Assembly: GCA_030041985.1 (NCBI GenBank)
Contig: JASIAM010000274.1
Span: 1-50,826, forward strand
Source: Bryobacteraceae bacterium
GTDB lineage: Bacteria; Acidobacteriota; Terriglobia; Bryobacterales; Bryobacteraceae
Length of the DNA stretch: 50,826 bases
Direction: 5' to 3'
Shown here: piece after piece, positions 2,311 to 42,431 of the stretch
How positions within the stretch are numbered: position 1 is the stretch's first letter
Layout: the number at the start of each line of letters is the position of its first letter
The notes under the pieces: generated by a model
The model's input: the letters and a program-made list of their open reading frames with translations, nothing else
Told to the model about the DNA's origin: nothing
Databases searched by the model: none
Made by a program: the position numbers and the translations under genes

Positions 2311-2654
2311 GGCATTTCCAGATCGACTTCCTCTACCGGTTTGACCAGGTAATCCAGAGCGCCCAGACGCATCGCCTGCACAACCGTGGGGATCTGCTTA
2401 TCTGCCGAGAGGACAATAGAAGGCACGCGAGCGCCGGTGCGGTTCATCTCGGCCAGCACATCAAGGCCGCATGCGCGCGGCATTCGGATATCCAGTAAGA
2501 GCAAAGAAGGCGGCACGCCATTACTTAGCCGCCGTAAGAACTGTTCGCCGGAATCAAAACATGACACACCGTAGCCTCGCATCGCAAGCAAGTCCGAAAG
2601 GTAAGTGCGAACCCCGGCATCATCGTCCACAACCCACACGGTAGAATTCTTCAC
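2307..2654 (-). CDS. Short response-regulator receiver domain protein
   Basis: Stand-alone CheY-like receiver, 115 aa. The acidic pair is in WVVDDD (D10-D11), the phospho-acceptor is D55 (LLLLDIRMP), the switch residue is S83 (IVLSAD) and the conserved lysine is K105 (LVKP). It stops 10 residues after K105, so most of helix alpha5 is missing; typical receivers run 10-15 residues further. Its stop overlaps the start of the sigma-54 activator (ATGA), and its own start overlaps the stop of the upstream kinase-like gene (ATGA at 2651-2654), implying tight translational coupling. It probably controls the adjacent AAA+ protein in trans, or is the N-terminal half of a formerly fused NtrC-like regulator. 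Confidence 0.9.
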   Translation of the reverse strand: MKNSTVWVVDDDAGVRTYLSDLLAMRGYGVSCFDSGEQFLRRLSNGVPPSLLLLDIRMPRACGLDVLAEMNRTGARVPSIVLSADKQIPTVVQAMRLGALDYLVKPVEEVDLEMP

Positions 2655-3325
2655 CCTAATAGCTCCACAGATCTGATTAATGGCAACTCACACATGATGC
2701 AGGAACATCCTTCGGTTTGGGTGGCATGAACCGTACCGCCATGTAACTGCCAGAGACCGGCAGGGCCTGAAAGGTCCGGTACTATATTGGCTATGCCATC
2801 CACAGGACAGGCTATTAGTTGCACGCCGATTCGGCCGTCCGATTCGGCCGCAGAGACCTTGATCAAGCCAGGGGAATTCGCGCGTTGCGCAACCGCTGCA
2901 ATGAAACCGCGGAGGGCCTGCGTGAGCTTGTCAGCATCGCCTGCCGTGATCATGGTTATGTCCGGGAGGTTTTGTTCGAGGGCGATGTTCTTACCCGCCA
3001 ACTGCGGAAGTATCTCCGCCAGCGCTTCCTGAAGCGCAGCATCAAGCTGGAAGGGCGCCAATTCCAATTTCGAATCGGTTGAAAAATCGGCGAGCTGCTG
3101 CAAGATGACCACCAGATGTTCGATATTTTCGAGCGCTAAGTTAAGATACCGCAAGGTATTTGCTGAGGAGTTATCCTGCGGCGACGCCAGTGTCATACGT
3201 AGATACCCGCGAGCCGTAAAGAGTGGGCCGGAGAGGCTATGACCCAAGTTGGACAACCAGTGTTCCCGAATTATTTCCAGGGCTTCCGAAGAGTTGAATG
3301 CAAACTTATCTACTCCCTGTTTCAC
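2651..3325 (-). CDS. Degenerate histidine kinase, possible Spo0B/ChpT-like phosphotransferase
   Basis: A 224-aa soluble protein with no membrane segment or sensor domain. Residues 20-75 look like a DHp dimerisation helix with a candidate phospho-histidine at H29 (LGHSLSGPLFTARGYL). The C-terminal half sits where a HATPase_c domain should be, but I cannot find the N-box asparagine or the DxGxG and GxGxG ATP-lid motifs; only a vague GPAGLWQLHGGTV stretch resembles the G2/end region. This resembles phosphotransferases such as Spo0B and ChpT, which keep the DHp fold and have a decayed ATPase. The start is GTG at 3323-3325 with a G-rich upstream sequence. It is the first gene of the operon with the receiver and the sigma-54 activator. 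The family call is an inference from motif placement. Confidence 0.7.
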   Translation of the reverse strand: MKQGVDKFAFNSSEALEIIREHWLSNLGHSLSGPLFTARGYLRMTLASPQDNSSANTLRYLNLALENIEHLVVILQQLADFSTDSKLELAPFQLDAALQEALAEILPQLAGKNIALEQNLPDITMITAGDADKLTQALRGFIAAVAQRANSPGLIKVSAAESDGRIGVQLIACPVDGIANIVPDLSGPAGLWQLHGGTVHATQTEGCSCIMCELPLIRSVELLG

Positions 3326-7426: not shown

Positions 7427-8114
7427 TCATCGGCTCAGGTCTCGCAGAATCCGTTCCCGGTCGAAACCGAGCGGGAAGAAACTGTAGCGCGCGGTCATCC
7501 AGAGCAGCTTGAGGTCGCTGCGCAGGCACCGTGACTGCTGATAACGCGCATTCAAGTGAAGTTTTTCGGGCAGGATCACAGCGCGGTAGTAGGCATCGCG
7601 ATCCGCAGCGGCGGCGAGGATCAATTCCTCATCACGGAATACCAGACTGGCCAGATCGGTAATCCCAGGCCGCGATTCCAAAATCCTGCACCAAAGCTCG
7701 TCGCCGGACCGCACGTACTCCGGAACCTCGGGGCGTGGTCCGATGAGACTCATCGTGCCCTCGAGCACGTTCATCAACTGAGGCAGTTCGTCGAGTTTGA
7801 ACGCCCTCAGCCAAGCGCCCACGTGCGTAACACGGGGGTCGCGCCGGGCGGTGATCGGCGAACCCTGGCTGCCCGCGCATGGTACGGAATTTCCGGATAA
7901 GGAAAGGCGCTCCATGTCTGCCAATCCGCTTTTGCCAGAAAAAAATCGGCCGCCCGTCCTCCATGGCGATCAGCAAAGCGATGAGAGCGAACAAAGGCGC
8001 AAGCAGCGCAAGGGCAATTAGCGCGCAGGAGGCATCCAAAACACGCCCTAGCCGCGCGGCGGCCGGCCCTTGTCCGGACATGCTGCGCCGCGCTTCACAA
8101 GTAAGAGCCGGCAT
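7427..8114 (-). pseudogene. Undecaprenyl-phosphate phosphoglycosyl transferase (sugar transferase), frameshifted
   Basis: Monotopic phosphoglycosyl transferase that starts exopolysaccharide assembly by loading a sugar phosphate on undecaprenyl phosphate. It is split over two frames. The 5' part has one hydrophobic helix (ALIALALLAPLFALIALLIA) and GRPIFFWQKRIGRHGAPF...RKFRTMRG; the 3' part resumes with SQGSPITARRDPRVT, the catalytic DE motif in AFKLDELPQLMNVL, and SLIGPRPEVPEYV. The shift falls at about 7865-7878; removing one base from the run after MRG restores one reading frame. Either a real mutation or an assembly error. The start is ATG 8114 (overlapping the NusG-like stop by 20 bases) or ATG 8081. 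It is of the short PglC-like type without the extra four-helix domain of WbaP. Confidence 0.82.
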
Positions 8115-8700
8115 GCGCTTCTTCCGCCATCTCCACGCGGCTCGCGTCAATCTCTAACAAGACCGATCGCTGCAGCAATGTCACCGAAAGGACCAACCGG
8201 AAGGTAGGCCTGTCACCCACCACCACACCTTCCACTCCCGCAAGCGCGCCGGACCTGATCCTGACTTTCTGGCCCGAGTGCCAGTATGGATAGGGAACCA
8301 CCGGAATTCTGGCCTCGATGGCCTTTTGAATCGACGCGATTTCTACTCTGTCGAGAGGGACTGGAGTACGTCCGAAACCCACCAACCGCAGCACTCCTGG
8401 CGTAGTCACAATCGGCAGGCATGCCGTAGGATCGAACTTGCAGAACAGGTAACCGGGAAACAGCGGCAGATCGAACTCGCGGGCCCGGCGGGCATATTGG
8501 TGCCGGCGCGTGTACAAAGGCAAAAAGGTTTCGAAGCCCTTATTGGTTAGCAGTTGGCGAACTACTTTCTCGTGGCGATTCTTCACGCTGAGTGCAAACC
8601 AATTCAGATCTGCCAGCGCGGGGACCTTCTTGCCGGCAATCGGCGGGCCCAATGCTTCGCCCAGCAGCGCTGGGGACACTACGGAATCCGGAATGTTCAT
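8095..8700 (-). CDS. NusG-like transcription antiterminator (RfaH/UpxY/LoaP type)
   Basis: Specialised NusG paralog, about 200 aa. An NGN domain spans roughly residues 30-130 (NWFALSVKNRHEKVVRQLL, FLPLYTRRHQYARRAREFD, LPLFPGYLFCKFD) and a KOW motif follows (GQKVRIRSGALAGVEGVVV) near residue 150. Such paralogs travel with polysaccharide operons and help RNA polymerase read through long gene clusters. Here it is the first gene of a leftward set with a phosphoglycosyl transferase and an aminotransferase, which fits that role. The start is set at ATG 8700; a GTG at 8718 is also possible, and neither has a strong ribosome site. Housekeeping NusG is about 180 aa, with a different N-terminus and secE next to it, so this is not the housekeeping copy. 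Confidence 0.88.
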   Translation of the reverse strand: MNIPDSVVSPALLGEALGPPIAGKKVPALADLNWFALSVKNRHEKVVRQLLTNKGFETFLPLYTRRHQYARRAREFDLPLFPGYLFCKFDPTACLPIVTTPGVLRLVGFGRTPVPLDRVEIASIQKAIEARIPVVPYPYWHSGQKVRIRSGALAGVEGVVVGDRPTFRLVLSVTLLQRSVLLEIDASRVEMAEEAHAGSYL

Positions 8701-9136
8701 AATTGCCCGATTCAGCACAGCTACCGCTCACTCGCGTGCGGGCGCAAGTATCAAAGCGCTATCAATAAACGGGCTAGTGTCTGCACGAGGTGTGCCAGCG
8801 GGAGCGAGCCTACTATGCAGTACTTACGGCATTGGCCGGATTTGGGTTATCCCGGCATCAGCGAGGCGGGCGAATGCAGGGCGGCGGAGCGAAAGGGCAG
8901 CCGCGGTGCCAGTTGTGGAAAGCCAGTTCTCGCGCGGAGATTTCCGTTCCGGTGAGCTTGGGGATTCCCCTCCCGCAGCAGGCGCGAATTGCCGAATGGC
9001 CACCGTTTTGCAATCTTTGGTCCAGGCCAATGCGCGATGGCGCGACCCTCTCAGCCGAAATGCTACACCGATATCCAAAGGCCTGCGGCCGAGGCACTCG
9101 CTCTACTCGAGCCGCATGCTCGCGAGGTCGCCGCTA
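8701..9136. promoter_or_regulatory. Divergent intergenic region between NusG-like gene and NarL-type kinase
   Basis: About 436 bases. The kinase reading frame stays open leftward through this whole stretch, with in-frame ATGs at 8996 and 9116, but the translation upstream of 9137 is low-complexity and unlike any kinase domain I know. I treat the region as non-coding and expect promoters for both directions here. No clear -35/-10 pair, hairpin or RNA gene was found. Confidence 0.4.
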
Positions 9137-9832
9137 ATGGCATCCCGGCAGCCACCCCCCGCTCCTGCCCATCTGGCGCGGATCGATGATCAGGAGCGGC
9201 GCCGGCTCTTGCGCGATCTCCACGATGAGGTCGGTCACGATCTTGTGCTGATCAAATTGCATCTGGAGAATATCGCGCGGTACAGGAGTAGCCCGTCCGG
9301 TTCCCGCCTGGCCGAGGCCATCGCCTTGGTTTCGCATGCCATTGACGCGCTGCGGCGCCTGACTCGGGATCTTGGGCCAGCAGTCCTGGAAAATCCAGGC
9401 TTTCTTCCGGCCATCCGCGGATACATCCGGCAGTTCTCGTCGAGAGTTAAAATTAAGGTCTCGTTCCGGACGCGCAACCTGCCGGCGGAGATTCCCTCCG
9501 CCTACCAGTTGGCTGTTTACCACGTTTTGCAGAGCGCACTGTCGAACGTGGTCGAGCACGCTTCGGCGCAACATGTGACTGTATCGCTCGGACGGGCGAA
9601 GCCTTCAGCACTGAGAATGGTAATCGCGGATAATGGGGTCGGATTCAATGTAAGCGCCAAACTAGCCGCCGGCTCCTTCGGTTTAACCGCTATGCAGGAA
9701 CGAGTGGAAGCCCTGGGCGGCGAGATCCGGTTCCGCTCCCGGCCCCAAGCGGCTGGGGCAAAAACTTATGGGACAAAAATCGAGGTGACTCTTCCCCTTC
9801 GAAGCACTAAATCCGGCAGCAGATCAAGATGA
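9137..9832 (+). CDS. NarL-type sensor histidine kinase (HisKA_3 + HATPase_c), soluble
   Basis: About 231 aa. The dimerisation and phospho-acceptor domain is HisKA_3: RIDDQERRRLLRDLHDEVGH has the phospho-histidine in DLHDEVGHDL. The HATPase_c has N-box-like SALSNVVEHASA, DNGVGFN and GSFGLTAMQERVEALGG. There is no membrane or sensory domain, so the input is probably cytoplasmic or through a partner. I chose ATG 9137 because GAGG at 9124-9127 is nine bases upstream; ATGs at 9116 and 8996 would extend it. The stop overlaps the start of the response-regulator gene by ATGA (9829-9832). The partner regulator is an internal-deletion remnant, so the pathway may be dead or the kinase may act on another regulator. 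Confidence 0.85.
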   Translation: MASRQPPPAPAHLARIDDQERRRLLRDLHDEVGHDLVLIKLHLENIARYRSSPSGSRLAEAIALVSHAIDALRRLTRDLGPAVLENPGFLPAIRGYIRQFSSRVKIKVSFRTRNLPAEIPSAYQLAVYHVLQSALSNVVEHASAQHVTVSLGRAKPSALRMVIADNGVGFNVSAKLAAGSFGLTAMQERVEALGGEIRFRSRPQAAGAKTYGTKIEVTLPLRSTKSGSRSR

Positions 9833-10092
9833 GCCTGGCGGCGCCCAAAAAGATTTCCATCCTGATTGCCGATGACCATATTCTCTTCCGCGAGGGCGCT
9901 AAGGCCGTTTTAAGCGGAGAGCGCGATATGGAAGTAGTGGGCGAAGCAGGCAACGGCCGGGAAGCGGTAAGAATGGCGCTCCGCCTACATCCCCATGTCG
10001 TTCTGATGGACAAGATGATGCGCAAGCTCGATATGCACGATCGCGCGGAACTCATCCGCTACGCCATCCGTAAGGGCTTGATCGAACCGTAG
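9829..10092 (+). pseudogene. NarL/FixJ-type response regulator with internal deletion (87-aa remnant)
   Basis: The first ~63 residues are a good receiver start: KISILIADDH (acidic pair D15-D16) to HPHVVLMD with the phospho-acceptor D61. The sequence then jumps directly to RKLDMHDRAELIRYAIRKGLIEP, which is the very end of a LuxR-type HTH domain. The second half of the receiver and nearly all of the DNA-binding domain are gone, roughly 120-130 residues compared with the usual 210-220 aa. The frame is preserved, so a short chimeric protein could still be made and might be phosphorylated poorly or not at all. It is translationally coupled to the kinase upstream through ATGA. The junction lies at about 10012-10024, in ATGATGCGCAAGCT. 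Confidence 0.85.
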
Positions 10093-10226
10093 CCGAAAAC
10101 GGGACTGGAAGCTCAGACTTTGATCGAACTCGCTGATCCTGGCGGGGCGGGCCGCCGTCATGAGCCGGAGCGGCGCGCAACACCAGGATCGCCGAAACAA
10201 GAATTGCTGAACTTTGCATGACTCTC

Positions 10227-10775
10227 TTAGGATCCCTGGGAGGCAATCCGCAAGTTGTTCCTCACCTGCGCGGTCACTTGCAGGGCCTGGACGTGCACCA
10301 TGTTCCGATCGGCTTCCGAATCCACGACACCTTCGAGCGAAACCCACCCGTTCTTGACGATGAGATGAACCGGAGGAGTTGGCCCGGCCCCGTATTTCTC
10401 GAGGAGACCGTTCTCATAGATCACGCGATAGAGACGCTTGCGCAGAGCATCGTCACTCTTAGACGGCGGCAGTACTTCGATCTTGTTCACCACTTTGTCG
10501 ACACCGGCAACGTGCCCCACCGCGCGCGCAGCAGTGTGCTTGAGGGTGTCCCGGGTAACCTGTCCCGACAGGGTTACAGTGTGACCCTGGACTTCGAAGC
10601 GGATCGTATCGAATACGCCATAAAACGGCAACTCCGCGAGCCTCTCGTGGATAGACCACTCAAAGCTATCCAATGTTCGCCCGGCCCACTGATGCTCCTG
10701 CGCAAAGGCAGAACCACCAACGAGCACGGAGGCATAGACAAGGGTCAGTAAGGTGCGCTTCAGATTCTTTTTCAT
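10227..10775 (-). CDS. Exported protein with two BON domains
   Basis: 182 aa. An N-terminal signal peptide (basic start MKKNLKR, hydrophobic core, cleavage after AFA-Q near residue 25) sends it to the periplasm. Two BON domains follow: about residues 38-102 (VQGHTVTLSGQVTRDTLKHT) and 110-178 (VKNGWVSLEGVVDSEADRNM). BON domains bind membranes or envelope ligands, as in OsmY, and are often stress induced. The start has GAGAG six to ten bases upstream. Directly repeated TCGAACT heptamers with starts 11 bases apart sit at 10797-10814 in the upstream region. It stands alone; the neighbouring antiporter gene is co-directional but 177 bases further upstream. Confidence 0.85.
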   Translation of the reverse strand: MKKNLKRTLLTLVYASVLVGGSAFAQEHQWAGRTLDSFEWSIHERLAELPFYGVFDTIRFEVQGHTVTLSGQVTRDTLKHTAARAVGHVAGVDKVVNKIEVLPPSKSDDALRKRLYRVIYENGLLEKYGAGPTPPVHLIVKNGWVSLEGVVDSEADRNMVHVQALQVTAQVRNNLRIASQGS

Positions 10776-10952
10776 AATTTTCTCTCTTTTAGTAGTCGAA
10801 CTGACTATCGAACTCGAAAACTAAGCGGCAATCATGCCTCCAGAACGCCCGCATCATTGACAAGGGCTTAAGTTCATCGCCTGCTTGTGAGCGCCGAGCC
10901 TATCCGACACTCTGACCTTGCGCCGTCACCACAAGCGGTCCGACACCAACCT
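10776..10952. promoter_or_regulatory. Upstream region of BON gene with helically phased direct repeat
   Basis: On the + strand TCGAACT occurs at 10797-10803 and 10808-10814, an 11-base period (one helical turn) about 25-40 bases before the BON gene start. This is the geometry of a dimeric regulator site, but with only two short copies it could be chance. Confidence 0.2.
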
Positions 10953-12131
10953 TTACTCAGTCACTCCCGCGCATACGGGCGCAGTGGAGTGGCGCGGATT
11001 CCTTCGCAGGAACTTAACCAGGGTTGCGTTAATTAAGATTGTGACCAGCGATGCCGCGAGGATCGCGTGGTAGAGTCCGGCGGTTATGAGACCAGCTTGC
11101 CGGGAGACTTGGGCGAGCACGAAAGAGAACTCGCCGATCTGAGTCAGGCCGGCCCCCACGCGGACAGCGGTGTCCACGGAGTAGCGAAATGCCCGGACGA
11201 CGCCGAACCAGACCACGAACTTACCGATGACTACAAGACCCGCGATTAGCAGCACCAAACGCCAGTCCGAAAACCAGGTTTGTGGATCGATCAGCATCCC
11301 GATAGTCACAAAGAAGACGGCGACAAACGCGTCGCGGATGGGAAACGTCTTCTCAGCGAATTTGTGCGCGTATTCGGAGCCGCCCACAAGCAAGCCGCCC
11401 ATAAACGCGCCCAGAGCCAGCGATAGGCCGGCGGCTTCCGTGATGGTGGCGACTACCAGGCAAATTGTCAGTGCCAGCAGGACGGAAATCTCATCGCTGC
11501 GGATCTTTTCGACGCGGGCCAGCAGGCGTGGAACGATCCTCCAACCCACCGCGATCACGGGAATCAGTAGAAGAACGGCTTTGCCGACACGCCAGAGCAC
11601 CTCGCCATAACTTGCGCCATGAGAACCGAGGCCAGGCAGGACGACAGTGAGAACTATGACCGTGATGTCTTCGATCAGGGTGAGAGTCACCATGATCCGG
11701 CCCGCTTCCGACGCCAGTTCCCCGCAATCGACCAGCAGGCGCGTCAATACCATGGTGCTGGCGACGCTGATAACACAGCCGGCCGCAATGCCCTGTGTTA
11801 TAGGCCAGCCCGCCAACATGCCCACCCCGAGGCCGAGTGCGATGGAGAGTGAGATGCCAATGGGCGCTCCAATCAGAGCGACCCACTTCACGCGGAGCAA
11901 TTCGGGAATCAAGAACTCGATTCCAACCGAAAACATCAGTAACACGACTCCGGCTTCGGCCATCACTTCGAACGAGTGCACGTCTGAAATGCGCGGCCCT
12001 GGCGTAAGTGGACTTAGAATAAGGCCGGCTAACACATAGCCTAAGATCGGCGGCTGACGAATGCGCCAGAACAATAGGCCTCCGAGGAGGGCGGCCGCGA
12101 GCACCATGGCGATGTCGTGAAAAATGACCAT
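10953..12131 (-). CDS. Kef-type cation/proton antiporter membrane domain (CPA2 family)
   Basis: 392 aa inner-membrane protein with about 11-13 hydrophobic segments. It opens with FHDIAMVLAAALLGGLLFWRIRQPPILGYVLAGLILSP, the CPA2 N-terminal signature, and carries VVLLMFSVGIEFL and LGAFMGGLLVG in the transport core. The protein would exchange K+ or Na+ for protons. It ends about six residues after the last helix and has no TrkA-N (RCK) nucleotide-binding domain, so gating must differ from that of KefB/KefC, or a separate RCK protein is encoded elsewhere. The start ATG 12131 has AGGGAGA seven bases upstream. Divergent from the nitronate monooxygenase. Confidence 0.9.
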   Translation of the reverse strand: MVIFHDIAMVLAAALLGGLLFWRIRQPPILGYVLAGLILSPLTPGPRISDVHSFEVMAEAGVVLLMFSVGIEFLIPELLRVKWVALIGAPIGISLSIALGLGVGMLAGWPITQGIAAGCVISVASTMVLTRLLVDCGELASEAGRIMVTLTLIEDITVIVLTVVLPGLGSHGASYGEVLWRVGKAVLLLIPVIAVGWRIVPRLLARVEKIRSDEISVLLALTICLVVATITEAAGLSLALGAFMGGLLVGGSEYAHKFAEKTFPIRDAFVAVFFVTIGMLIDPQTWFSDWRLVLLIAGLVVIGKFVVWFGVVRAFRYSVDTAVRVGAGLTQIGEFSFVLAQVSRQAGLITAGLYHAILAASLVTILINATLVKFLRRNPRHSTAPVCAGVTE

Positions 12132-16314: not shown

Positions 16315-16908
16315 TCACGGCACGTGAGCAGGACCGAGGCCTGACCCCGTGAGCGCTCCGGGATCGGTCTGAAAGTACGCATCGTTGCGATGAAAGCCGG
16401 CGAGGGCCGCAACCATATTATTAGGGAACATCTGAAGCGAGGAATTGTAGTGTTCCAGCGTCTCATTGTACTTGCGCCGCTCGACGGCGATGCCGTTTTC
16501 CGCGGCGGCGATTTCGTCCTCCAATCGCAAAAGCTGTTTATCGGCCCGCAACTGCTGATAATTTTCCGTGAGCACCAGCAGGCGAGCGAGAAGGTTCGAA
16601 AGGCGCTCGTTGGCCGCGATCTTTTCCTGCGCGGTGCGGGCGCCGGCGAGAGCGCCTTGCGTCTCGGTCACACTCCCGAAGAGATCGGACTTGGCGATAC
16701 TTTCCTGTTCCCGGGCGGCACGTTTCACCATTTCCGCCAGGCTGGGAATGAGCTCAGCGCGGCGTTCGAGAGCCTCCTGCACCTGCAGCCATTCGCTCGT
16801 GACCTCATCGCGCTCCATCACCAGCCGATGCCGCACGCTGGCAAACTCGCTGGCGGCTGCTAATGCGACAGCCGCAAACACCAGCACGGGAATCAGGATG
16901 GCTCTCAC
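16315..16908 (-). CDS. LemA family protein
   Basis: 197 aa with one N-terminal transmembrane segment (LIPVLVFAAVALAAASEF) and a helical cytoplasmic or periplasmic body. LemA signatures: ALERRAELIPSLAEMVKRAA, the repeated NERLSNLLARLLVLTENY, and the C-terminal YNETLEHYNSSLQMFPNNMVA. The TM segment lacks the usual NxVxL-type prelude in full but the order is typical. Its GTG start overlaps the stop of the nucleotidyltransferase gene (GTGA, 16905-16908), showing translational coupling. LemA genes are often found beside TPM-domain genes, as here. The function of the family is unknown. Confidence 0.9.
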   Translation of the reverse strand: MRAILIPVLVFAAVALAAASEFASVRHRLVMERDEVTSEWLQVQEALERRAELIPSLAEMVKRAAREQESIAKSDLFGSVTETQGALAGARTAQEKIAANERLSNLLARLLVLTENYQQLRADKQLLRLEDEIAAAENGIAVERRKYNETLEHYNSSLQMFPNNMVAALAGFHRNDAYFQTDPGALTGSGLGPAHVP

Positions 16909-17717
16909 GTCGGCTCTCCTATTATTCCAGGCTCTTCCTGTTCCAGACTCTTCTTATGTTCCAAACTACCGGCGGAGTCACGTTCGAGCCGGTCCACAGA
17001 TTCAATGACCTTGGTGATGCCTTCCAGGTAGGGGGCCAGCAGCGCCCAGGGATCCACCTGCCGCGGAGGGAATCGCTCTTCGCGCAAGTCCAGAAGTTTG
17101 TCGAAGGGCTGCGGGTCGATGCCGAAACATGCCGCCGCCTGCCGGACGATTTCCCGCTTGCGTGGAGGGACATCCACTCCCTGTAGCGCCAGCGCGTGCC
17201 GGAACAGCACACAAAACGTAGAAACCGAGTCGGCCAGCAGACGCCGCAACAGGTTGTGATCCGACATCATGCCTGCCGCTTTTTGGCGCAATCGCAGCAA
17301 TTTCGACCGTAAATCGCGCTCGACCTGCGCGCGGTAGAGCGATCCCGTCCGCCCGCGATCGATGCGCAGTCCGGAAATCGCGTCTTTACCATACAGCAAG
17401 CGGTGCTGCTGCTGGATATCGAGAAATTCGATCGCGAAGCAGTCCGTAGAAGCGGCCATTTCCTGTTCGGTAAGCAAGAGCGGCGACGGGTTTCCCAAGC
17501 CGCGCCACCAATGAAACAGTTCTTCGGCCGCCGCCAGTTCGCGCGGTGTAATGGCGTTCAATACGCAGAGAACATTGAAATCGGAATATTTCGGCTGGCA
17601 CTCGCCGGCGCTGCCTTCACGAGTATCTACGGCCGAGCCGTACAATACCACCGACACCAGGCGTTCCGAATAGGCCTGCTGCAACTTGCGAACCAGATGA
17701 TCGAGCGGCTCCGGCAC
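16905..17717 (-). CDS. Nucleotidyltransferase-fold protein with altered active-site Asp
   Basis: About 270 aa. Residues 5-45 carry a nucleotidyltransferase motif: LVSVVLYGSAVDT then YSDFNVLCVL. Classical members have GS followed by DxD (SDIDLL); here the second Asp is Asn (SDFN), so metal binding and catalysis may be impaired. The rest is helical, with a long alpha-helical region (DLRSKLLRLRQKAAG) resembling HEPN-type or substrate-binding domains. I set the start at GTG 17717, six bases after GGTGA and just past the TPM gene stop (17722). The frame is also open leftward through the TPM gene, but that part does not look coding. It lies between TPM and lemA with coupling to both. Confidence 0.72.
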   Translation of the reverse strand: MPEPLDHLVRKLQQAYSERLVSVVLYGSAVDTREGSAGECQPKYSDFNVLCVLNAITPRELAAAEELFHWWRGLGNPSPLLLTEQEMAASTDCFAIEFLDIQQQHRLLYGKDAISGLRIDRGRTGSLYRAQVERDLRSKLLRLRQKAAGMMSDHNLLRRLLADSVSTFCVLFRHALALQGVDVPPRKREIVRQAAACFGIDPQPFDKLLDLREERFPPRQVDPWALLAPYLEGITKVIESVDRLERDSAGSLEHKKSLEQEEPGIIGEPT

Positions 17718-17721
17718 GGTT

Positions 17722-18540
17722 TCACCAATCGCCGCAAGCGCCGCCGCCGGGCGCCGGGTGGGTGCACTGCCCTTTGGGTACTCCGCCGAATCCGCCAAAA
17801 CTATCGCCGGAGTCGTATCCGCCGAATCCGCCGCTGCCCCGGCTGCCCCAACTGGCGCGGCTGATGACGCTGGAAAGGCCAGGCAGAAAACCGGCGCTGC
17901 GGCTCCACCGCCTCCCCCGCCTATGCCCGCTATAACCGTGGGTTCCGCCGCTGACCATAAGCCAGGCAAGCAGAACGAACGCTCCCACAAGCACCGGCCA
18001 AGCAATCGAGTCCCAAACGGTGGGATGAATTCTACGTTCGAGGGCGGCTTTCACGCGGACGTGTTTCGTCCGCGTTATGGCGTCGCCGAGCGTGGACGCT
18101 GCGGCCAGCACGGCTTCGCCATACTGCCTGCGCCGTACCGCGGGCCGCATCTCGCGAAGCATGCTCTGCTCAAGCCCGCCCGGCACGAGCGCCCGGATGC
18201 CGTCTCCCACTTCGAGACGGCTGCGCCTTTCGCCGATGGCGAGCAGCAGCAGGGCGCCATCACCATTCGCCTGGCCAATTTCCCAGCCCCTAAAAATCGT
18301 ACGGGCGACATCGTCGATGGGTTCCCCCTGAAGGGAGGGAATAGTAACGAATGCAATCTCGACGCCGGCCGCTTGCGCGACCGCGCGGCAGTAATTTTCC
18401 AGTTGTTGCCGGCTCGCGGCATCGATCACACCCGCAAAATCGCTGGCGCACCCTTGCCGCTTGAGGGCCTTCCAGTCCACAGCCTTTACGGCGAGTGGGC
18501 CAAGTAACGCCAGGGCGCACAGCCGCAAACACTTCCGCAT
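17722..18540 (-). CDS. TPM domain protein (YgcG/Psb32/MOLO-1 type), membrane-anchored
   Basis: 272 aa. Signal peptide ([20 protein letters not shown]), then a TPM domain at about 30-160 ([55 protein letters not shown]), then one transmembrane helix near 190-208 ([16 protein letters not shown]) and a Gly/Ser-rich tail ending GGGACGDW, the usual terminus for this family. The domain is thought to act outside the cytoplasmic membrane, as in plant Psb32. First gene of a tight leftward operon with the nucleotidyltransferase and lemA. The start ATG 18540 is divergent from thiE, 60 bases away. The tail is unusual in having two cysteines. Confidence 0.87.
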
Positions 18541-23259: not shown

Positions 23260-24327
23260 ATGAAAGGGAGAGGGATGCTCACGGTAGCGGTTTTGGGCGT
23301 GGCTGGTGCAACGGCCGCCTGGGGGCAGATACAGCCTCCTGGGGGACTGCGCCAGGGGCCGGGAGTGCAGGCGCCGCAGGACGCCAGAGAGGCCGACGTG
23401 CTCAAGAGCTGCAAGACTCCGCCTCCAGCGCCGGCCGGGCGGGGCGGCGGCCGAGGCCGAGGGCGCGGCGGGGCGGCCACTGCGCCTTCAGCTCCGCGCG
23501 ATGTCACCACAATCCCAGGAGTCATCGCGGCGGGGCAGCAATGGAGAGAGGTATGGGAAGTGGACGGCAATAATGCCGACGGCATTATCGCTACCAAGGA
23601 CGGCGGCATCCTGATTGCCCAGAATGATAAGAGCGAAGTCGTGAAGCTGGATAAAGACGGCAACGCTTCGGTAACGTATATGGGCACTAATACGGGCGGG
23701 TCGCTGGCGATGAACTCCAAAGGCGTTCTGTTCGTGGCCAACCGGGGCTTGAATCCATCCATCGAGGAACTCGCGCCGAAGCGGCACACTTTCGCCAACA
23801 AATACAACGGCGATCCCATGGATTGTATCGGCGGCGTTCTCAATGACATTACCGCCGATAGCAAAGGCGGTGTCTACTTCACCATGGGCGGCCTCTATTA
23901 TGCGGACCCGAAGGGCGTCATCACGCGGTACGGCGAGAATCTGTTCACCAATGGCATCGTCCTCAGTGCCGACGAAAAGCACTTATACGTAACCAATGGA
24001 CAGACGCTGGCCGCGTTCGATGTGCAGAAGAATGGCTCTCTCACCAACCAGCGCGAGCTCGCTAAACTGGATGGCGGCGGCGATGGCAGCACGTTCGACG
24101 CCGCGGGACGCATCTACGTAACAACCACCGCTCCCGGCATCCAGGTGATTGGACCCGATGGCAAGAACCTGGGCCTGATCCCGACGCCACGCGGCGTAAT
24201 CAGCGTAGCGTTCAGCGGCCCTGATAGAAAGACGCTGTATGCGGTATCGAGGGACAACGCGCAGAATAAAGACTGGATCATCGCGATCCAGATGATCGCC
24301 CAGGGTCCCAAAGGCCGCGGCAAGTAA
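23260..24327 (+). CDS. Secreted SMP-30/gluconolactonase-like beta-propeller protein with Gly/Arg-rich linker
   Basis: 355 aa. Signal peptide (MLTVAVLGVAGATAAWGQ) with cleavage near residue 23, then a low-complexity linker (about 63-80) rich in Arg, Gly and Pro, then a six-bladed propeller. Repeats such as ADGIIATKDGGILIAQND, LAMNSKGVLFVANRGL, LNDITADSKGGVYFTMGG, NGIVLSADEKHLYVTN and STFDAAGRIYVTTTAPGIQVI give the SMP-30 style blades. A metal-dependent lactonase is possible but the exact substrate is unknown. ACCAGGAGGATTT gives a strong ribosome site before ATG 23260. It is the first of three co-directional genes (DUF763 protein eight bases downstream, then SDR). Confidence 0.85.
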   Translation: MKGRGMLTVAVLGVAGATAAWGQIQPPGGLRQGPGVQAPQDAREADVLKSCKTPPPAPAGRGGGRGRGRGGAATAPSAPRDVTTIPGVIAAGQQWREVWEVDGNNADGIIATKDGGILIAQNDKSEVVKLDKDGNASVTYMGTNTGGSLAMNSKGVLFVANRGLNPSIEELAPKRHTFANKYNGDPMDCIGGVLNDITADSKGGVYFTMGGLYYADPKGVITRYGENLFTNGIVLSADEKHLYVTNGQTLAAFDVQKNGSLTNQRELAKLDGGGDGSTFDAAGRIYVTTTAPGIQVIGPDGKNLGLIPTPRGVISVAFSGPDRKTLYAVSRDNAQNKDWIIAIQMIAQGPKGRGK

Positions 24328-27539: not shown

Positions 27540-29240
27540 CTAATGCCTCTGAAAATCGGGAGACTCCAGCAGAGCCGCGGTGTTCTGCCCCGCTGCCTGC
27601 AGATCTATCTTCACGCCTGGAACCTTGTTGTCCGCCAGGTTCAATGCGAAATTCATGCGAGCCAACAGGCCGGCGGAGTTGAGCCATTCCTGGCTGGAAT
27701 TGGAATAGCCGGTCGGCTCCTGCTTGCGGTATAGAGGCTCGCCCATCCGCTCCACCTGACTGACCAGGTTAGAGGCGAAATCGACATCGCCATTCACGGC
27801 GCGCACCGCGCTCACCACCATTTCAAGCGGCGATTTGAGCTTGGCGCGATAGGCGCCCACGGACCAGAATTCTTTGGATTCGAGCATGGTGCTCATCACA
27901 GCGCGCAAATCGCCGCCGCTTTTCAGGAAGGTCTGCGCCATGCGCTCCACCAACACCGGCGGCGGATCGTCGGACACAAACCGCATGGCCAGCTTGCGCG
28001 ATATGAAGTGCGCCGTGGAAGGATGATGGGCCAAAATATCCAGCACCTTTTCGCCATCTTCGATGCCGCCGCCCTTCGGAATCTTGACGCCCAGCACGAT
28101 TTTTTCGCCTTGATCATGCATGCGCGGATTGAATGTGAAGGGGCCGCCTTCATTGGGGCGTTCGATCGTCCAACCGGTGAAGCAGCGCGCTACTTCCGTG
28201 ACATCATGCTGCGTGTAGCCGCCATCCACTCCGAGCGTGTGCAACTCCATCAGTTCGCGGCCGTAATTTTCGTTCAGCCCGCCAACGGCGCGGTTCACGC
28301 GGTCGCGCTGCTCCGGATTGGCCCGCGACTCCCAATTATCGAGATAGAACAGCATGGCAGGACTTTTTGCCGTGGCCTCCAGCAGGTCTCGAAACTTGCC
28401 CAAAACGTGGGGCCGGATCACATCACGCTCATAGGCGGTCACCAGAACATGGTCCGCGCCTTTATCCAGGTACACATTGAAATGGTTGAACCAGAAATCG
28501 GTGAGCACCTCTTCCAACTGGCGATTGCTGTAGATGGCGCGCAGCAACTTGCCCTGCGTGAGGTCAAGCGTCACTACCTGCTGGGGACCATTGGCCATAT
28601 CAATCTTGCGGCGCAATTGCGGAGGCGCCGGGGCAAAGATCGCCTGCCGGATACCTCCCGGCAGCGCCAGCAGCACGTCATCCTGGCGGTCCGCCGGAAT
28701 GGCTTCAAAGGCCGCCAGGCGCTGTTCGGGCGTGCCCCGGCGAAGCGCGCTCACCTGTTCGGGTGTAAGCAATGCGGCCATCTCCTGCTCGGCCGTCCTC
28801 TGATCGCCAGTCTTTTGCCGGCGCTCGATGCGTTCCGCAACCCGCTCGACCATCATGCGGCGGTCCGGATCATTAGGAAATGACAAGCGTCCGTTCAGCA
28901 TGCGCCGCACCATCTGCGGCTCGGGATAATTTTCTACCAGGGTGCGCGATGTCATGAACAGCGAATCGAGCGGCTTCAACTTCTCTTCGAGCACCGGATT
29001 TTCCGCGATGCGATAGGGATGCAGTTGCTGGCCGATCCATTTCTTCAGCCCCATCGCTTTCACCCGTTCGAAATCGCCTGGCCGCGGGCCGAATGTGAGC
29101 CGGTTCAACGCGTGCGCGATGCGATCTTCTTTGGGGATCTGCCGGTGAAAGTCCGGCGCATTTTTTCTGGCGGACGCCGCCACCAACGGCAGCACCACCG
29201 CGCCTGCCAATGTCACCGCTAACATTCCTCGGTTACGCAT
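27540..29240 (-). CDS. DUF1800 family protein, exported
   Basis: 566 aa. Signal peptide MRNRGMLAVTLAGAVVLPLVAASA, then the DUF1800 core: RIAHALNRLTFGPRPGDFERVKAMG, LEEVLTDFWFNHFNVYL, NYGRELMELHTLGVDGGYTQHDVTEVARCFTGWTI and FNPRMHDQGEKIVLG. The family is secreted and always near DUF1501 partners; it may assemble with them on the cell surface. No enzymatic activity is established for it. It forms an operon with the DUF1501 gene (five bases apart) and has a 71-base upstream gap to the NADH dehydrogenase gene, which runs in the same direction. Length is normal and I saw no lesion. Confidence 0.92.
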   Translation of the reverse strand: MRNRGMLAVTLAGAVVLPLVAASARKNAPDFHRQIPKEDRIAHALNRLTFGPRPGDFERVKAMGLKKWIGQQLHPYRIAENPVLEEKLKPLDSLFMTSRTLVENYPEPQMVRRMLNGRLSFPNDPDRRMMVERVAERIERRQKTGDQRTAEQEMAALLTPEQVSALRRGTPEQRLAAFEAIPADRQDDVLLALPGGIRQAIFAPAPPQLRRKIDMANGPQQVVTLDLTQGKLLRAIYSNRQLEEVLTDFWFNHFNVYLDKGADHVLVTAYERDVIRPHVLGKFRDLLEATAKSPAMLFYLDNWESRANPEQRDRVNRAVGGLNENYGRELMELHTLGVDGGYTQHDVTEVARCFTGWTIERPNEGGPFTFNPRMHDQGEKIVLGVKIPKGGGIEDGEKVLDILAHHPSTAHFISRKLAMRFVSDDPPPVLVERMAQTFLKSGGDLRAVMSTMLESKEFWSVGAYRAKLKSPLEMVVSAVRAVNGDVDFASNLVSQVERMGEPLYRKQEPTGYSNSSQEWLNSAGLLARMNFALNLADNKVPGVKIDLQAAGQNTAALLESPDFQRH

Positions 29241-40532: not shown

Positions 40533-42431
40533 TTACTGATGCACGGACGTATAGAGCGTTGGCGCGCCGGCGAAGTTGCCCAGGGCGAAGGTCACCGGAA
40601 CGACGTCGCTATCGGGAATATTGGGCACGATCACATTGAATTGATAGAGACCCAGAAAGCCTGGCGCTAAGCCGGCATACTGGACCGTGGCCGGCGCCGA
40701 TCCGAAAAAGACCTGCAGCGGCATGGTCAATTGATTGGTCTGTTGTACGATTTGGCCTTGGGGCGGCGCAGGCGTAACTGGGCCGAATCCGTTGCCGAAA
40801 AATGTGATGCTCTCTCCGGGCTTGGCAGGCCGGTACGATATGCCGCCGAGATTCGCGCTGGAGGGCAAAATATAAGTCGAGGTGCCGTTCACCACGGCTG
40901 CCAGGTATTGCGTGCCGCTGATGGTATACCCAAGGCACAAGCCAGGCTGGGCGGCATTCACAGTGACAGAAATGGCGGGGCTGGTTCCGCTCGTTGCAGT
41001 GACCTGAACGGTTTGCGTTCCGGGGCTGACATTCAGCGGCACCAGGGCGTTGACTTGCGTAGGACTGATGTAGTCCAGCACGGCGTTTTGGCCGGCGATA
41101 GAGACCGAGGTGCCATCGAGCGACGTGGGCGCTATGTTCCCGTTGAAATCGGCCGATGTCCAGGAACGGGTGTCGGTGGCGAGAGTGGTCCCATGCACTT
41201 CCATCCAGCCTCCGGGCGCTACCTCACCGGCATAACCGCCGCACGCGGAAGCGCTGTTCATGCTAGTGATAATCGGCGGGATGATCGGAGCGCCTGCGGT
41301 GCCGCTTGGCGTAAGCTGACGAATAACGTTGTTTTGCCGGTCGTCGATATAGATGATTCCGCTCGGCCCTAGCGCGATTCCGCTAGGAAAATTCAAGGTG
41401 GCGTTGGCGCCCAACCCGCCATCGCCGGTGTATCCGGTTTTGGATCTGCCCGCAATGGTGTGAATGTTGCCGTCGGTAGTTACTTCGCGGATGCGGGAGT
41501 TGAAAGTGTCGACAATGAACACATTGCCGGAAGCGTCCACAGCGACGTCTTCCGGGTAGTTGAGTTGCGCTTTAGTAGCCGGTCCGCCATCGCCGGAATA
41601 GCCGCCCGTCAATCCGCAGATGCCCGCGATCGTTACGATCACGTGGTTCATGGTAGTATTGGGCCCATATATTTCGCGGACGCAGTGATCGTACGTATCG
41701 GCGATAAAGACGTCTCCGCTCGCGTCCACGGCCACGCCCTCCGGATTATTGAGCGAGGTGTACCAGGCGATCACATCGCTTTGGGCTTGTAGCGGCGGAT
41801 TGTCGCCGTTGCCGGCAACGGTGTAAATGTACTGATTACTGGCTTGGATTTCGCGGATGCGATTGTTGAGCGTATCGGCGATAAAGAGATCTCCCGAGCT
41901 ATCCGTAGCCAAGCCGGTAGGGCCGTTTATCTGGGCGTCGGTGGCCAGGTAGGCATCGCCCGAAAAACCACCTCCGAGCGTAGTGCCCGCGATGGTATTG
42001 ATGATGCCGCTGGTATTCACTTCGCGAATCGCGGCATTGGAGGCGGGAGCGGTTTGAGAAAAATACACGTTGCCGGAGTGATCCACGGCCAAGCCACAAG
42101 GCGACGAAATATAGGCCGAGGTAGCCGCTCCCGTATCACCGGCATAGCCGCTCGTGCCGTCTCCAGCGATGGTATTGATAACGCCGCCGCTCACCTTGCG
42201 GATGCGGTAATTGATCTGATCTGCGATATACAGATTGCCGGACTGGTCCGTAGCGATCTTGCAGGGGTTATTGAGTTCCGCTTGAAGGGCGGGACCTCCG
42301 TCGCCGGAATAGCCCAGTGTGCCATCGCCAACCACGGTAGCGATAGTGTAAACCGGCTGCGCCCGGCCAATCGAGAGCGCAAGCGATGAAACAGTAATCA
42401 ACCAGAAGATAGATTTACGATAGGAGCTCAT
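40533..42431 (-). CDS. Secreted NHL-repeat beta-propeller protein with TIGR03437 C-terminal domain
   Basis: 632 aa. Signal peptide (ITVSSLALSIGRAQ), then six or so NHL repeats with a recurring DASGNVFIVDTFNSRIREV pattern (for example ADQINYRIRKV, ADTLNNRIREI, ADTYDHCVREI) over residues 30-385, forming a propeller. The last ~240 residues carry a Solibacter-type C-terminal domain: PGGWMEVHGTTLA, VSIAGQNAVLDYISPTQVNALVP, AKPGESITFFGNGFGPV and FFGSAPATVQYAGLAPGFLGLYQFNVIVP. This C-terminal type is common in Solibacter and is a strong taxonomic hint. The protein is likely surface-exposed. Divergent from the second TonB receptor. Confidence 0.92.
   Translation of the reverse strand: MSSYRKSIFWLITVSSLALSIGRAQPVYTIATVVGDGTLGYSGDGGPALQAELNNPCKIATDQSGNLYIADQINYRIRKVSGGVINTIAGDGTSGYAGDTGAATSAYISSPCGLAVDHSGNVYFSQTAPASNAAIREVNTSGIINTIAGTTLGGGFSGDAYLATDAQINGPTGLATDSSGDLFIADTLNNRIREIQASNQYIYTVAGNGDNPPLQAQSDVIAWYTSLNNPEGVAVDASGDVFIADTYDHCVREIYGPNTTMNHVIVTIAGICGLTGGYSGDGGPATKAQLNYPEDVAVDASGNVFIVDTFNSRIREVTTDGNIHTIAGRSKTGYTGDGGLGANATLNFPSGIALGPSGIIYIDDRQNNVIRQLTPSGTAGAPIIPPIITSMNSASACGGYAGEVAPGGWMEVHGTTLATDTRSWTSADFNGNIAPTSLDGTSVSIAGQNAVLDYISPTQVNALVPLNVSPGTQTVQVTATSGTSPAISVTVNAAQPGLCLGYTISGTQYLAAVVNGTSTYILPSSANLGGISYRPAKPGESITFFGNGFGPVTPAPPQGQIVQQTNQLTMPLQVFFGSAPATVQYAGLAPGFLGLYQFNVIVPNIPDSDVVPVTFALGNFAGAPTLYTSVHQ

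Follow-up and report, generated by a model that had tools for sequence, protein, structure and literature searches.

Receiver chemistry requires a Lys and a Thr/Ser that are supplied by the second half of the receiver domain. The described systems closest to the locus studied here are the NarL/FixJ-type response regulators, such as VraR/LiaR and NarL, and the HisKA_3 kinases of the MctS/UhpB/LiaS kind. In Bordetella pertussis, according to PMC5020355, the kinase gene risS is frame-broken and lies beside its regulator gene; RisA, the regulator, is functional and pairs with a different kinase. We examined a 50,826-nt stretch of contig JASIAM010000274.1 of a Bryobacteraceae bacterium (“the window”), in which a histidine kinase gene is followed by a very short response-regulator gene (Table 1). 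As assembled, the regulator gene is surely decayed. Judged from its sequence, the whole is probably a decayed NarL-type two-component operon with two internal deletions.

Table 1. Features of the kinase–regulator locus, in window coordinates.
Feature	Position	Strand	Remarks
Probable kinase N-terminal remnant, in a frame other than that of the core	9031..9135	+	short match
Kinase deletion junction	9130..9160	+	net 362 nt absent, frame probably broken; 4/14 orthologues
Kinase catalytic core, HisKA_3 + HATPase_c	9137..9832	+	Pfam domains, orthologue alignment; putative start
Response-regulator relic, receiver start fused to HTH end	9829..10092	+	87 aa
Receiver part kept, residues 1–61, phospho-Asp codon (10009–10011) last	9829..10011	+	
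Regulator deletion junction	10011..10019	+	~133 codons (399 nt) missing vs orthologues
LuxR/GerE HTH end kept, residues 62–87	10012..10089	+	

A sequence-only reading of this DNA had described an in-frame jump from the start of a receiver, through its phospho-Asp (D61), to the end of a LuxR-type HTH, in a gene still coupled to that of its kinase by ATGA. The overlap of the regulator’s ATG with the upstream stop is indeed present (ATGA, 9829–9832), and the open reading frame, Pfam and column log-odds all bear out the jump. Pfam’s Response_reg profile matched residues 11–68 of the 87-mer (37.9 bits). The GerE profile gave a sub-threshold score on residues 61–79 (13.3 bits; cut-off 23.5); this match spans just profile positions 39–57 of 57, and the HTH is thus incomplete. 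Column log-odds were taken from 125 intact NarL-type regulators. These were drawn from 151 frames with a receiver match in the loci fetched until then; frames of 190 aa or more were kept if an HTH-tail match followed 90 or more residues on, and identical sequences were removed. By this measure, residues up to 61 are receiver-like (receiver, +3.86; HTH, −2.86) and the protein is HTH-like overall from residue 65, placing the switch between 61 and 65. Residues 62, 63 and 69 fit the receiver and HTH columns poorly alike, residue 64 fits both, and residue 76 fits the receiver column better than the HTH column. Alignments run beyond residue 61 because the receiver motif MPxLDG and the HTH motif MxKLD resemble each other. 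A receiver that simply continues past this point was ruled out, as the column scores favor the HTH from residue 65 on.

The column of D61 holds Asp in all 125 intact regulators, and the receiver sequence of the 87-mer ends there; nothing in it corresponds to the receiver Lys, which is nearly invariant (column 113 of alignment A1). Hence, the protein has neither the complete receiver nor the complete LuxR/GerE HTH of a functional NarL/FixJ regulator. Its tail, KMMRKLDMHDRAELIRYAIRKGLIEP, aligns with the corresponding segment in the orthologues (NLMRKLDLHDRSELIRYAIRKRLVEA in locus L158) and comprises about 26 residues rather than the 23 first proposed. A single regulator family, encoded beside the orthologous kinase, matches both pieces, as expected of NarL/FixJ descent; a fusion of two unrelated regulators was ruled out on these grounds.

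To collect orthologues, 237 genomes from the taxonomic family, including that of the window, were searched, and at most seven candidates were scored per genome. Orthologous operons, with matches above 230 bits, were found in 15 other genomes; the next match scored 147 bits. The kinase that led to this distinct operon family sits in L124 (genome G154), where the receiver match was best. A single full-length regulator frame is present at 14 of the 15 orthologous loci. At the remaining one, L155 (2700–3352; G154), the regulator is broken within its linker, leaving receiver and HTH in separate frames, and this locus was omitted from the regulator counts; L156, whose kinase is 93% identical to that of L155, has an intact regulator. 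A probable further orthologue in G441, truncated by a contig end, was left unused. A query with the antiporter gave no strong match in G001–G004, which precluded a syntenic empty-site comparison.

Comparison with the 14 intact orthologues located the ends of the deletion, as the earlier reading had envisaged. Relative to 11 of the 14, the gap amounts to 133 codons (399 nt); relative to the other three, it is 134, 135 and 142 codons (402–426 nt). In 130 other frames that carry both parts, the residues missing from the 87-mer number 124–160 (median 135). The loss is therefore of some 133–135 residues, larger than the ~120 initially estimated, and relative to the intact orthologues it is a disabling lesion of the type that defines a two-component pseudogene.

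Did this deletion arise between short matches, as the sequence-only reading suggested? Its proposal of a clean, in-frame internal deletion is upheld by the orthologues; the short matches at ATGATGCGC are not. That string is the HTH side of the join, and L164 and L170 have AACATGATGCGG and AATATGATGCGC, respectively, at the same place; it is no evidence of a repeat because it is ordinary HTH code in intact relatives. The parent sequence of the gap is lost from view; direct repeats were sought in the 14 intact orthologues. The gap ends there have 0–3 bases in common at the join, and the longest in-register runs within 15 bases are of 4–5 bases, providing no useful repeat; a repeat-mediated deletion was rejected. 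The window flanks of the gap contain short imperfect repeats. Of exact ones in 8701–10300, CAAGATGA, also at 9825, is the only 8-mer, and there is no 9-mer. These flanks cannot test the repeat mechanism, because a deletion leaves a single copy.

The partner kinase appears to have suffered as well. Its HisKA_3 and HATPase_c domains score above the Pfam cut-offs, and its NCBIfam matches, below cut-off, are of the MctS/UhpB/LiaS kind. The core is 39–59% identical to those of 14 uncut orthologues, whose frames are 385–499 aa long, none being core-only. Very roughly 150–170 extra residues precede the core in these kinases, their starts being only approximate. No Pfam name was found for this N-terminal part (e.g., L156, 1501–2000) in the three members scanned (E up to 0.05), and it could represent a sensor domain not yet described. 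In the window, a stretch of 27–35 residues that corresponds to a region close to the beginning of this part is recognizable at 9031–9135 (46% over 35 residues; E = 1.9e-4 for the whole window), and four orthologues (L155–L158) match with E-values of 3e-6 to 3e-5 on 1.2 kb. At whole-genome scale, the E-value is 0.07, weaker than that of a likely chance hit, interrupted by a stop, on another contig (E = 0.005), and 10 of the 14 orthologue kinases, the fairly close L159 among them, gave no such match. In each of the four kinases matching both parts, the net loss is 362 nt, which is not a multiple of three; the gap figures for L160 (1261) and L163 (801) were discarded as out-of-order side hits, and L161, cut by a contig end, was omitted from the gap alignment. 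With this short N-terminal match as its basis, we consider the kinase frame to be probably broken. For the L168 kinase, a weak alignment extends in the frame of the core as far back as 9035, which, if real, counts against a frame break. The core frame is open further upstream, to 8510, and a candidate restart ATG lies at 9137, nine bases after GAGG (9124–9127).

Sequence divergence was examined for signs of relaxed constraint. In a kinase tree of 16 rows with no outgroup, no end branch is longer than that of the window core (1.33; L160, 1.05; median, 0.19), and this core sits with L155–L161 on one side of a split that has 100/100 support. It breaks 8 of 60 invariant positions, vs. 0–5 of 60–65 in the uncut orthologues; the contig end that cuts L161 explains its figure of 43/61. 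The HTH tail breaks 2 of 13 (11/13 kept), vs. 0–1 of 13–14 in the orthologues, and the receiver part shows no excess at 2 of 21 (19/21 kept), vs. 0–3 of 21–24. Differences by codon position (first, 0.35–0.48; second, 0.21–0.30; third, 0.59–0.66) are as under long constraint. This pattern fits lesions that are recent relative to the divergence, with relaxation that is mild at most, and does not prove neutrality.

We also looked for the missing parts and for similar short forms elsewhere. Searching the organism’s own genome with the missing regulator part returned paralogues only (18 matches; best, 47%), and no second copy of the missing regulator or kinase parts was recognized in the assembly. 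No short-form homologue spanning the junction was present among the matches listed from 299 genomes of the class (E up to 1e-14) or 396 of the phylum (E up to 1e-15); these sets overlap, at most 18 and 13 candidates per genome, respectively, were passed on, and the organism’s own genome was kept apart. Matches in L024, L028, L031, L045, L099 and L100 reach residue 85, and others from the class genomes reach residues 83–84; their frames are 239–902 and 226–321 aa long, respectively, and they were rejected as junction-spanning relatives. Short receiver frames with no HTH match in the same frame occur in L124, L135, L149, L032, L044 and L110/L111; in L124 the HTH is in the next frame, and in L110/L111 the frames run off the contig end. 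That of L135 (minus strand, 1470–1716) is a receiver-like frame of 82 aa that ends soon after the phospho-Asp and has no HTH match.

An AlphaFold2 model of the 87-mer is a half receiver (mean pLDDT, 85; pTM, 0.69) in which a helix derived from the HTH (residues 69–81) comes after strand 3, and Foldseek places it on receivers (LiaR, 5hev_A; TM by query, 0.75). The input included 25 full-length relatives as extra rows; because the alignment thus held full-length regulators, the model leans toward a receiver-like answer, and stability is not implied.

As for the surroundings, 27 other proteins of the window were scanned with Pfam, and in 21 the best domain covers at least 90% of its profile. The exceptions are at 2651–3325, 10227–10775, 16905–18005, 23260–24327, 27540–29240 and 40533–42431; some of these six are repeats, are below the cut-off or have no family. 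A sugar transferase gene (7427–8150, minus strand), lying ~0.9 kb upstream from the remnant of the kinase, is split over two frames, with Bac_transf profile positions 2–61 in one and 64–176 in the other; it is either a further decayed gene, in line with decay of the operon, or a sequencing error. A DDE_3/HTH_32 protein, probably a transposase, is encoded at the very end of the contig (33–944, plus strand). An Rfam search of 8000–11000 found nothing.

How might such a locus have come about? The ancestral operon would have encoded a kinase (the conserved N-terminal part, HisKA_3 and HATPase_c) and then a full-length NarL-type regulator. One deletion, of net ~362 nt, would have taken most of the kinase’s N-terminal part and broken the frame; another, of ~399 nt, would have removed the second half of the receiver, the linker and most of the HTH, the frame being kept by chance. 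We infer that the organism itself carries the gaps, that these are recent relative to the divergence, and that the products have no useful function. The alternative that comes nearest, still an unlikely one, is that the real genome has an intact operon from which the assembly dropped two stretches of ~360–400 nt. That this is a draft genome in 355 contigs, with two similar-sized gaps within ~900 bases of each other and a third, frameshifted gene nearby, would fit such an artefact. Set against it are the regulator gap ends, which with 0–3 shared bases in the 14 orthologues offer too little for ordinary repeat collapse, the fact that the missing parts went unrecognized on other contigs, and the good profile coverage in those 21 of the 27 other proteins. 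Decay in the organism itself remains our preferred reading. A further rival is a half-alive operon: the kinase core might be made without its N-terminal part (e.g., from the ATG at 9137) and serve another regulator, leaving the 87-mer inert. The catalytic domains that exceed the Pfam cut-offs, the ATG preceded by GAGG at the junction, and core-sized frames of such kinases in a relative, G005 (224, 257 and 260 aa), speak for this possibility. We nonetheless rate it as quite improbable, given that none of the 14 uncut orthologue frames is core-only and that 8 of 60 invariant positions are altered in the core.

Active roles for the 87-mer fare worse. The decoy or sink idea, in which this half receiver would fold, bind to the kinase and titrate phosphoryl flow, draws on the retained frame and ATGA overlap and on the predicted fold with its Foldseek match to receivers. 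Such a role presupposes a working kinase, whose frame appears broken; moreover, the nearly invariant Lys is absent, and no short-form homologue crosses the junction among the matches listed. We regard this idea as very improbable. Least credible of all is a selected miniature system, in which the kinase core, lacking its N-terminal part, would work with a half receiver whose helix 3 is replaced by the last HTH helix, the pair acting as a constitutive sink or adaptor. Most likely, then, the 87-residue protein is a relic and not a working decoy.

Gene decay of this kind is ordinary. The locus carries a caution: a short in-frame ORF with ATGA coupling may mimic a designed decoy, and here the orthologues suggest that the partner gene is broken too. 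Should the short form prove to be made and to bind a kinase, it would represent an unusual type of half-receiver regulator. With NarL/FixJ-type regulators (VraR/LiaR, NarL), the 87-mer has in common the receiver start, the acidic pair and the phospho-Asp, as well as the C-terminal HTH end; unlike them, it has no second half of the receiver, no linker and no first part of the HTH. The window kinase shares HisKA_3 and HATPase_c with kinases of the MctS/UhpB/LiaS kind and differs from them in that its N-terminal part is mostly lost and its frame apparently broken. The likeness to risS of Bordetella pertussis would lie in a frame-broken kinase gene, probable in the present case, next to a regulator gene; in the present operon, the regulator is gutted too.
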